From Pyrobaculum sp. WP30 (lineage in GTDB: Archaea; Thermoproteota; Thermoprotei; Thermoproteales; Thermoproteaceae), in the NCBI GenBank assembly GCA_001189275.1, contig CP012158.1, positions 62,001 to 126,000 on the forward strand: a DNA stretch of 64,000 nt, written 5' to 3'. Below the pieces are notes generated by a model. It had not been told where the DNA came from and did not search any database. It saw only the letters and a program-made list of their open reading frames with translations. A program made the translations under genes and the position numbers. This document shows positions 47,557 to 58,534 of the stretch, piece after piece. Numbering within the stretch: the stretch's first letter is position 1; every line of letters starts with the position of its first letter.

Positions 47557-47991
47557 ATGCCAACCAAAGTAAAAGGAATGACAAGCCTCGAGATCGCGAT
47601 AATAGTAGCAATAGTGCTGATAATCGCAGTGGCGGTGGGCTGGTACCTATACACCACATTCGTAGCCTCTGTCGGCGGTCAGCCAAGACTAAACGTAGTC
47701 TCAGCAGAGATAAATGGTACAACCACTGGCTCAGCCAAACTAAAACTTATAGTGGTCAACCCAGGCCCCGTCGACGTAAAGGTCGATTACGCTGAGGTAG
47801 CTGGAGGAACTGTCCAGTTGACATGCACTGCCAAAAGTGGTAATGTTCAAAATAATGTCATTAGTGTAGGCGCTCAAGCCGAATGCACTGGCGCGGTAAG
47901 CGTTACAGCGACGCCTGGCACGATGTTGCCTGGTAGGGTCATTTTGAGCGGTGGGCAGAGCTTCCCGTTCAACGCGGTGGTTAAGCCGTAA
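47557..47991 (+). CDS. Type IV pilin-like protein with class III leader
   Basis: The 144-residue protein begins MPTKVKG, then MTSLEIAIIVAIVLIIAVAVG: a basic leader ending in Gly, then the pilin N-terminus with Glu at position 5 of the mature form, then a hydrophobic helix. That is the archaeal class III signal cut by PibD-type peptidase. The C-terminal beta domain has an NPGPVDVKVDYAEVAGG strand pair. It would form or cap a surface filament. AATATTTAAAG at 47528-47538 fits the ATG. It is the only protein of the cluster with a clear leader. Confidence 0.85.
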   Translation: MPTKVKGMTSLEIAIIVAIVLIIAVAVGWYLYTTFVASVGGQPRLNVVSAEINGTTTGSAKLKLIVVNPGPVDVKVDYAEVAGGTVQLTCTAKSGNVQNNVISVGAQAECTGAVSVTATPGTMLPGRVILSGGQSFPFNAVVKP

Positions 47992-48017
47992 GTGAAGTAA
48001 AACCCCCCTTTTTTCCT

Positions 48018-48419
48018 ATGTCTTCTCTTGAGGTGGCTTTTCTTCTTGGGGTTATCGTCGCGGTGGCTTTGGGTGTGGGGTGGTGGCTTTCCTCTACTTT
48101 TCTTGCGTCTAAGCAAGAGTTTACCCAGGTGTATCCCATCTCGGCGTATGTAGACGCCGATGGGGACTTCCTTCTGTGTGTGTACAACGCTGGGCCGCAC
48201 GAGTTCTACGGAAGGTGGGTTCTTTCTGTGAAGTCTGGGCGGAGCGTCGAGGTGTCTCTGGTGGCGCCGGTGGGGAGGCTCGTCGGCGTCCGGGGCTCGC
48301 TGGGAGAGCCCTTCACCCCCGGCACCTCGCCGGCGCTGATAATAACCACAGGCGGCGGCAGTAGCTACATGATTTACCCCATAGTAGTGCCGGACATCTC
48401 ATCCGTTTCATGCGGCTGA
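48018..48419 (+). CDS. Pilin-like protein lacking a leader
   Basis: The 133-residue protein starts MSSLEVAFLLGVIVAVALGVG. The hydrophobic helix and Glu5 match those of the mature first pilin (MTSLEIA). No leader precedes it: going upstream there is no ATG, GTG or TTG in frame before a stop. The globular part has an NAGPHEFYGRW segment like the NPGP strand of its neighbour. An AAGTAAAAC box about 22 bp upstream supports this ATG. It may be anchored by its helix without PibD cleavage. Confidence 0.8.
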   Translation: MSSLEVAFLLGVIVAVALGVGWWLSSTFLASKQEFTQVYPISAYVDADGDFLLCVYNAGPHEFYGRWVLSVKSGRSVEVSLVAPVGRLVGVRGSLGEPFTPGTSPALIITTGGGSSYMIYPIVVPDISSVSCG

Positions 48420-49380
48420 CGGCTGGCCGCTCTTGGTTACATCTCGGCGCTGTATAGGCGCCGGCTCTTCTCGCATTTCTGTTCTCCTCGCGTGTTCCTC
48501 CTGCTGTTTACCTCGACGAAGTGGTATGCCGGGAGGCCGGCCTTGAGCAGATGGGGGGCGTGCCGCCGGCCTTGACCATAGGTTCTGAGCATCCGTCTCC
48601 TGCTGTGATTCATCGGGCTGTGGTGGTCTCCCCTTTTTTCTCGGTACGGTTGTTGCGGTGTGGTTCGGCGCCTGGGTCTCGACGAGCGTCTCGTGGCGCT
48701 TAGTCTCGCCACGGGCCTTGTCTTCGCTCATCCTTCGCCGCGTTTGAGGTGTTTGTCGTGTCGTTTGTGTTTGTGGTGTTGGTGCACCTCACCGGTGGTC
48801 TTGGCTCTCGGGCGTGTTGGGGGGTTGGCGTTTGTGTGGAAGCTCGACGCCCTTTTTGGGTTTTCTAGGACACCTGCTCCTTAGGGAGGCGTTGTTCCTG
48901 TGTTTGTGGGTTTGTCTCTGGCTTTCGTGGCGGCGCATGGGGTGGAGGCAGGTGGGGTGTTTCCTACCTCAAACGCGTGGCTTGTGTCTTATTACAGCCG
49001 CAGAACCCCCTTACGGGGTGGACGGCGCTGTTTTTCGGGGCGCCGTGGTTACTACACGGAGTTTCTCTATACAGGGCTGAGGGGGTGATGGCGGTTTCTA
49101 GGCCGGGGGGCTTGTGATTGAGCACTGGATCGCCGTGGCGCCTTGGGTTGGCCGCGTGGCGCGCCGCGGTGTTTGAGGTAATCTACGCCGCGTTGAGAAG
49201 CGGCGTGTCGCTGACCTCCTTGGCGGCGGCTTCTTCGTCTCTTGTGGCGTTTTCCCGCTGCTGGTGCTAGTGGCCGTGCCGTTTATCCGTCTCTTCACGT
49301 CTACGTCGGTCTGCAGGTCGCGTCTGTGGGCTTGGGCGTGCCGCCTGTCTTTGTCTGTTTGGCGCCGCTTGGGTGAGGGG
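48420..49380 (+). pseudogene. Probable decayed membrane-protein gene
   Basis: No intact frame covers this 1-kb gap. From about 48690 the plus strand reads as hydrophobic protein-like pieces that switch frame: LAFVWKLDALFGFSRTP, VGLSLAFVAAHGVEAGG, ALFFGAPWLLHGVSLYR, LLVLVAVPFIRLF. This pattern suggests a membrane protein broken by several frameshifts. I cannot name the family. 48420-48690 shows nothing clear. Confidence 0.4.
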
Positions 49381-57292: not shown

Positions 57293-57293
57293 T

Positions 57294-57989
57294 ATGCAGT
57301 CGCTTGAGCTTGTTGTCTTGGTTTCTTTCTCGCTATTGATAGTCTTCGCCGCGGTGCCGTACATCTGGCAACTGGCTTCCGCCTCTATGGCGCAGTGGGA
57401 GGCTCGGCAGATGCTCACCTTCATGGCGTCTTTCGCGGACTCGCTTGAGTCGGACTTCGGCATGCCAGGCACGTTTAGGAGCTACTACCTCCCCAATTTG
57501 GCCTACGGCGTCTTCTCTGTGCGGAACTACACGATGTATATAACCTGCACCTCGACGGGGCGTTCGCTACCGCCTGTGTACTCCCTCTTCGTCATGTATA
57601 ACTCCAGCTATATAACAGGCGGCGCAAAGCCGCTTAGGGGAGTTAGGAACGTCACTCTTGCACCGCTGGGCCAGCCGTTGGCAAGTCTCAACGCCACAGG
57701 ACTCGGCTATGTGTTGTACACAGGACCCGTCTACATCTCCGGGGCGCCAACCGTGGTGTATGTGGTTAACGTCACTAGTCTCGTGGTCTCAGGCTCAACC
57801 TCTCTGAGGTACCGGGTGGTGCGCCTCGTCGATGGGTACAGCGACGATCGTTTTCGTATGGATTGTCCAGGAGGCGTATTTCAGATAAGACTTGTCGATA
57901 GTAGAGGGCGGCAATTGTGGACCGCCGCCTACGGCCTAGGCGGAAGCGTCGTGGTGGTGGCTACGCATGTCGAGGTTGCGTTGAGATGA
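57294..57989 (+). CDS. Pilin-like protein, MQSLE start
   Basis: The 231-residue protein opens MQSLELVVLVSFSLLIVFAAV. Met-x-Ser-Leu-Glu places Glu at residue 5 from the initiator. In-frame sequence upstream hits a stop within four codons, so no leader can exist. A stalk follows (ARQMLTFMASFADSLESDFG), then beta-rich globular sequence. It starts one base after the stop of the giant protein. Confidence 0.75.
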   Translation: MQSLELVVLVSFSLLIVFAAVPYIWQLASASMAQWEARQMLTFMASFADSLESDFGMPGTFRSYYLPNLAYGVFSVRNYTMYITCTSTGRSLPPVYSLFVMYNSSYITGGAKPLRGVRNVTLAPLGQPLASLNATGLGYVLYTGPVYISGAPTVVYVVNVTSLVVSGSTSLRYRVVRLVDGYSDDRFRMDCPGGVFQIRLVDSRGRQLWTAAYGLGGSVVVVATHVEVALR

Positions 57990-58534
57990 GGTCGCTTGAG
58001 GTCGCCGTCCTTTTCGCCTTCGTCGTTGCGGCCTCTGTCTTTCTGGCGTTTTACGTAGACATGCTTGCGCAGTCTGCACTCGACCGCGAGGTGGCGGCTT
58101 TGGCTAAGTCGACGGAGGACCTGGTGGCGGCTCAGTTGAGAGACGTGCTGACGGCTGCGTCGTTTAGCTATGTGCGGAACTTCACCTACATGCTCTACGT
58201 GCCCACTGAGTTCCCCACCCTAGACGCATACGTCTACAACGCGACTATTTACGTAGGCGGCGACGGGGTGTTGTACGTAAACGTTTCTTTCGCCGGCTTT
58301 AGGGGGACCGGCGTCAGCCGCTTCTCTACTTCATCTGCCGTCGGCAATGTGACAAGCCGCGCCGAGATGGACGGCGTTAGGCTCTACCTGTCAGACCCCG
58401 TGGCCGCATACGCGTTGGGGCCTGGTGCGTCGCAGTGCGTCACCCAACGCGGCGTCAACTTGACGCAGGTGGGATGTGCCGCCCTTGTGACTGGGGCTCG
58501 CCAGTACTACGTCCTTTATGTGATTAAAAGGTAG
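57986..58534 (+). CDS. Pilin-like protein, MRSLE start
   Basis: The 182-residue protein opens MRSLEVAVLFAFVVAASVFLAF, again with Glu5 counted from Met. The stalk ALDREVAALAKSTEDLVAAQ and a globular end with two Cys follow. ATG overlaps the stop of the previous gene. An in-frame extension upstream has no clear leader (basic, Gly-rich, inside the previous gene), and I reject it. T-rich sequence after the stop suggests that the operon ends here. Confidence 0.74.
   Translation: MRSLEVAVLFAFVVAASVFLAFYVDMLAQSALDREVAALAKSTEDLVAAQLRDVLTAASFSYVRNFTYMLYVPTEFPTLDAYVYNATIYVGGDGVLYVNVSFAGFRGTGVSRFSTSSAVGNVTSRAEMDGVRLYLSDPVAAYALGPGASQCVTQRGVNLTQVGCAALVTGARQYYVLYVIKR

Follow-up and report, generated by a model that had tools for sequence, protein, structure and literature searches.

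Several pilin genes in one cluster of Pyrobaculum sp. WP30 appear to begin at the very residue that leader cleavage would expose. The system appears to be a known, predicted kind of archaeal type IV pilus whose major pilin has been solved. Its leaderless minor pilins are apparently undescribed, and no published account of such "born mature" minor pilins was found in the open-access literature. The reading that we consider probable is a type IV pilus in which some minor pilins are born mature, with the unformylated archaeal methionine serving as residue +1. Type IV pilins are regarded as requiring removal of their leader by prepilin peptidase (PMC10191384). If the reading is true, membrane targeting and assembly can be uncoupled from leader cleavage, and pairs of leadered and leaderless orthologues are a natural experiment on the purpose of the leader. 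Pilin-finding programs search for the leader, and leaderless pilins would then have been overlooked in genomes.

The window, meaning the whole stretch of 64,000 nucleotides that was analyzed, covers bases 62001-126000 of the single 1.99 Mb contig of this strain. The genes are lettered A to H (Table 1). The closest named relative is a near-identical Pyrobaculum MAG, with 94% identity over gene D (the sole match in a contig scan). The second genus of the family in the comparison is presumably Thermoproteus. Start positions, register, conservation, leader gain and loss, synteny, and the presence of machinery were read from the sequence.

Table 1. Features of the pilin cluster, in window coordinates.
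Feature	Position	Strand	Basis
TATA element AAAATATTT	47526..47534	+	ends 22 nt before major pilin ATG (47557); sequence
A, major pilin, Par_PilA orthologue	47557..47991	+	leader MPTKVKG, then mature MTSLE; phmmer to 6w8u_A
B, leaderless PilA paralogue	48018..48419	+	MSSLE from initiator; match to 6w8u_A and mature A
C, predicted 919-aa secreted protein	49428..52187	+	ORF, beta-propeller-like stretch, C-terminal membrane helix, sequons
TATA element	52218..52226	+	22 nt before GTG of D
D, predicted minor pilin	52249..53556	+	GTG start, MRG leader, then LESIE
E, minor pilin-like	53553..53996	+	MRWVLEL, Glu6; ATGA overlap with D
F, large protein, candidate tip subunit	53993..57292	+	MRG, then QALIL; ATGA overlap with E
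G, predicted leaderless minor pilin	57294..57989	+	MQSLE, Pro22
H, predicted leaderless minor pilin	57986..58534	+	MRSLE; ATGA overlap with G

A sequence-only reading of this DNA had counted Glu5 from the initiator in B (MSSLE), G (MQSLE), and H (MRSLE), and the frames, re-read to the previous stop, agree with it. Its statement that B has no upstream start also holds: 11 codons lead back to the in-frame stop, and 0 of them are ATG, GTG, or TTG. So does the lack of room for a leader on G, where three codons lie upstream and the sole candidate is a non-canonical ATT. H has one in-frame GTG 23 codons upstream. That GTG is missing from the relative L032, and the residue before Met would be Glu, not Gly or Ala. 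The reading had granted a proper leader to A only. The leader of A stands (MPTKVKG↓MTSLE, the arrow marking the cleavage site), but D and F carry minimal MRG leaders as well, the shortest possible for class III. Because of these, the system is mixed, with leadered and leaderless members. A hydrophilic leader ending in Gly or Ala is present in window proteins A (KG), D (RG), and F (RG) and absent from B, E, G, and H. The hydrophobic helix has Glu at +5, in mature numbering, in A, B, D, G, and H. The leaderless E has Glu at position 6, and F has none. The sequence finding is solid, and it is broader than first proposed.

A chance origin of Glu5 is ruled out by motif counts and helix context. The pattern M-x-[small]-[L/F]-E occurs at 38 sites genome-wide, compared with 49 for a reversed-pattern control; in the 11-kb cluster, 4 were observed against 0.21 expected (P about 7e-5). 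A hydrophobic helix follows the motif in 5 of 30 sites read, and all five are pilins: A, B, G, H, and a second PilA outside the cluster that has its own leader, MATGARG. Across 794 kb of this and related genomes there are 34 distinct helix-type starts with Glu5, and 28 of these lie inside this cluster. Purifying selection acts on every cluster gene, pN being well below pS. Together with the wide conservation, this rules out spurious ORFs.

The major pilin of P. arsenaticum, Par_PilA, has a cryo-EM structure (PDB 6W8U) and is cleaved before MT (PMC7347861). Its orthologue here is A, whose leader of seven residues is cut off ahead of MTSLE. Residues 8-142 of A fall on chain residues 1-125 of 6w8u_A (phmmer E=2e-18), and residue 8 falls on mature residue 1, in the same cleavage register. 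A paralogue, B, has the same mature form. It matches 6w8u_A with residue 1 on residue 1 (E=1.8e-5) and mature A along the full length (BLASTP E=2e-11), and it is conserved without a leader in L032, L043, and L045. For the lollipop fold in B, the homology covers the helix region of 6W8U. The Par_PilA paper deals with the major pilin only and takes leaderless PilA copies as start-codon misannotations (PMC7347861), whereas B, G, and H are not explicable by start misannotation here.

Synteny of D-E-F-G-H extends to 16 further genomes of the family, in two of which, L031 and L042, the locus runs into a contig end. All 11 genomes of the window's genus, window included, have a leaderless G (MTSLE or MQSLE); in six others, namely five Thermoproteus and one further genus, G reads MRG↓LE(A/S)LE. 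In the alignment, Met1 of the leaderless forms falls on +1 of the MRG-leadered forms, and no sequence departs from Leu4, Glu5, or Pro22. For D the pattern is reversed between the window and Thermoproteus: the window, L032, and L043-L046 have the MRG leader, and D is leaderless (GTG-QSIE/QAVE) in 5/5 Thermoproteus. Most Thermoproteus have the leadered form MRG↓I(S/T)A(L/I)E of H. The window clade (MRSLE) and L043-L046 (MNALQ) have leaderless forms, and an acidic residue is missing from some H orthologues. Leader loss is probably the derived state, since G-like matches in the sister family have ordinary leaders such as WRRG↓QSDV. The single-gene trees allow for leaders having changed repeatedly, but the long branch of L042 makes counting the changes unsafe.

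The E family begins MRW or MKW with Glu6 from the initiator in 14/14 aligned members, which is one residue away from the pilin position. Glu6, here after KG↓Q, also occurs in the D-like proteins of the sister family.

A hidden leader could be supplied by a rare initiation codon, by a programmed frameshift from the overlapping preceding gene, or by a sequence error. Such a leader would be in keeping with the ATT two codons before 57294, with a GTG two codons before MQSLE in L045 and L046 that gives a possible MA↓MQSLE, and with the start annotation errors known for PilA (PMC7347861). In most of the genus, a stop lies 2-6 codons upstream of G with no start in between, the only GTG two codons upstream being that of L045/L046. 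Upstream residues are not conserved, and both spacing and frame relative to the previous gene vary. Unrecognized upstream starts, which by the sequence-only reading's own account would overturn its proposal, were searched for; none was found for G in the genus apart from the L045/L046 GTG, and none for the D orthologue in the five Thermoproteus. The promoter geometry of Thermoproteus D also speaks against a hidden leader, which we regard as very unlikely.

In 5/5 Thermoproteus, exactly 22 nt separate the end of the element AACGCAAAAT(T/A)TAT from the GTG of D, in spite of a diverged spacer. The geometry of a 9-mer followed by 22 nt is common to A and D of the window and to Thermoproteus D. Leaderless mRNAs are in use in Pyrobaculum aerophilum (PMC7531240). 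Given this and the exact TATA spacing, the Thermoproteus D mRNA most likely starts at the GTG codon itself, so that GTG would be the first codon and no leader peptide could precede it. In the window, the TATA element at 52218-52226 is evidence against the upstream TTG at 52195 as the start of D. Missed upstream starts are thus ruled out by in-frame stops together with promoter geometry.

PibD, an assembly ATPase, and TadC had all been reported absent. This is true of the window, but homologues of all three are encoded elsewhere in the genome and were missed because they lie outside it. The prepilin peptidase (PibD) homologue is at G000:C1:624327-624902 and has two candidate catalytic Asp motifs, QDVKTREID and GYAD. 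Pfam A24 models find nothing in this genome, but a relative's protein used as query finds the homologue. A type IV pilus ATPase and an UpsF/TadC-like protein are paired at G000:C1:23653-26730, about 84 kb from A. The best NCBIfam match of the ATPase is the archaellum ATPase (8e-50). The TadC-like protein has no Pfam T2SSF match and matches UpsF at E=1.2e-10. The Pfam model matches another type IV pilus locus (1.77 Mb) and overlooks the diverged copy at 23.6-26.7 kb, so an absence of TadC is likewise rejected. In Thermoproteus (L134, L135), orthologues of the ATPase/TadC pair, 60-76% identical, lie 3' of H after one or two small genes; identity is 75% for the ATPase and 60% for the TadC-like protein.

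Clade 4G is the Pyrobaculum-Thermoproteus group of Makarova et al. (2016, PMC4858521), which has a diverged ATPase and TadC, a PilA-family major pilin, one large C-TM "S-layer-like" protein, one large SP-bearing protein, and several Cys-rich small predicted minor pilins. Compared by description, C fits the large C-TM component and F the large exported one, and the small minor pilins contain Cys. The linkage to a diverged type IV pilus ATPase and TadC is found through the Thermoproteus adjacency. Judged by gene composition, D-H (52249-58534) forms the module of minor pilins in a type IV pilus that matches this clade. Leader absence in minor pilins is not mentioned in the passages of that paper that describe the clade (PMC4858521). 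The archaeal system of undescribed form that had been proposed is therefore set aside: A is a Par_PilA orthologue, the locus fits clade 4G, and peptidase and motor are present. What survives of the suggested pseudopilus-like complex with cleavage-free subunits is the set of pilin-like subunits starting at the mature N-terminus; a new system without peptidase or motor does not. Neither Pfam nor NCBIfam assigned B, D, E, F, G, or H to a family above cut-off.

The cluster might instead be a secretion pseudopilus or a surface complex apart from the PilA filament, with the fold alone in common. D-H occurs without adjacent A-B-C in several genomes, such as L039 and the Thermoproteus loci, and F is very large and variable, as this alternative would allow. 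Against it, D-H lies next to A-B-C in the window, L032, L043, and L045, and next to A and C in L046, and the ATPase/TadC pair follows D-H in Thermoproteus. We consider a separate complex unlikely.

F is the largest minor subunit. It has an RG or KG leader before Q in 15 relatives, keeps its leader in every relative with a readable N-terminus, and has no acidic +5 residue in 16/16 sequences. Its length is either about 400 aa or about 1100 aa (L043-L046 versus other loci), and only the N-terminal part is common to both forms. The bacterial GspH-I-J-K set is likewise a group of minor pilins with one much larger member without Glu5; however, no sequence relation was found, and the bacterial proteins are leadered prepilins. 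A tip subunit without Glu5 and a bridge between Glu5 and the amine are known features (PMC10191384, PMC5207764). By analogy, F is a candidate tip subunit. The GspK likeness is an analogy only, because no sequence homology was found between F and solved structures.

The favored reading is that of a type IV pilus with major pilin A, paralogue B, surface protein C, and the five-protein minor module D-E-F-G-H, which would be assembled by the distant ATPase/TadC pair. F would sit at the tip in a GspK-like manner with D, E, G, and H beneath, and A would form the shaft. A, D, and F would be prepilins with short leaders, presumably cut by the PibD of the genome. In B, G, and H, as well as in Thermoproteus D, translation would start at the residue that cleavage would expose. 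The archaeal initiator Met is not formylated, and a leaderless archaeal pilin would therefore have the same N-terminus as a cleaved one, if Met is kept. For the same reason the free amine would be present at once, along with Glu5, for pairing with neighbor subunits. Bacteria formylate their initiator Met (PMC7531240). Both Glu5 and the free amine at the N-terminus are believed to take part in pilin assembly (PMC10191384, PMC5207764). The helix of the leaderless pilins would act as an uncleaved N-in signal anchor. We infer this topology, the cleavage-free assembly, and the tip order from the features above.

Many of the leaderless proteins have Gln, Arg, Asn, or Glu as residue 2, which should protect Met from methionine aminopeptidase. 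Some points run counter to this model. Proteins beginning MTSLE or MSSLE are open to Met removal by that enzyme, and Glu could then end up at position 4. Not all subunits share the register, as E has Glu6 and some H orthologues lack an acidic residue. The leaderless proteins also carry few positive charges ahead of the helix that could favor an N-in topology. On balance, we lean toward the view that some type IV pilins form a natural class independent of the prepilin peptidase: their genes would encode the mature subunit, and leader presence would switch in evolution among the subunits of a single pilus.

The C-terminal parts of G and H are predicted to be exported, which is supported by sequon enrichment and two kept Cys in each. 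Sequons number 2.2-2.7 per 100 aa, compared with 0.46 in other window ORFs, a level reached by 0/2000 shuffles. Intracellular disulfides are known in Pyrobaculum, so that Cys alone is weak evidence of export. Single-sequence models give G a helix at residues 3-55 followed by beta strands, at low confidence, and H a helix at 3-57 followed by strands, with low confidence beyond residue 40. Mean pLDDT is 46-48, and confidence is good for the first 20-30 residues only. A fold search with the weak G model gave no usable match. PDB profile searches with G and H gave nothing significant, the G profile reaching 6W8U only at E=9.2.

These weak models, and the H orthologues without Glu5, are what might be expected if the leaderless proteins were accessory single-helix membrane proteins, such as platform partners or anchors, that lie outside the filament and lost the leader together with pilin function. 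A Glu buried in a hydrophobic helix should vanish once incorporation is lost, and yet G retains Leu4-Glu5-Pro22 without exception, whether leadered or leaderless. B also resembles a solved pilin from residue 1. An accessory role is improbable on this evidence.

Several minor observations concern individual genes and their surroundings. In L041 (G001), H has no in-frame start, and a G-run ATGAGGGG suggests a small indel; C is broken there too. In the window, C has weak Pfam propeller matches and 12 N-glycosylation sequons. A T-rich tract ccccccttttttcct lies between A and B (47992-48017) and is kept in L032, L043, and L045; it could be a terminator of A transcripts that keeps B expression low. 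At 46992-47056 there is a decayed copy of the 3' end of pilin A (47911-47976), 919-920 bp upstream and 70-81% identical, which by this match is a remnant of a tandem pilA paralogue. The 1 kb at 48420-49427 has no convincing gene, and its base counts (A 92, T 309, C 260, G 347) differ strongly between the strands. This interval is missing from L032, in which C adjoins B. A truncated RNase P RNA (RNaseP-T, Rfam RF02357) lies at 62896-63103 of the window, matching the model over its full length.
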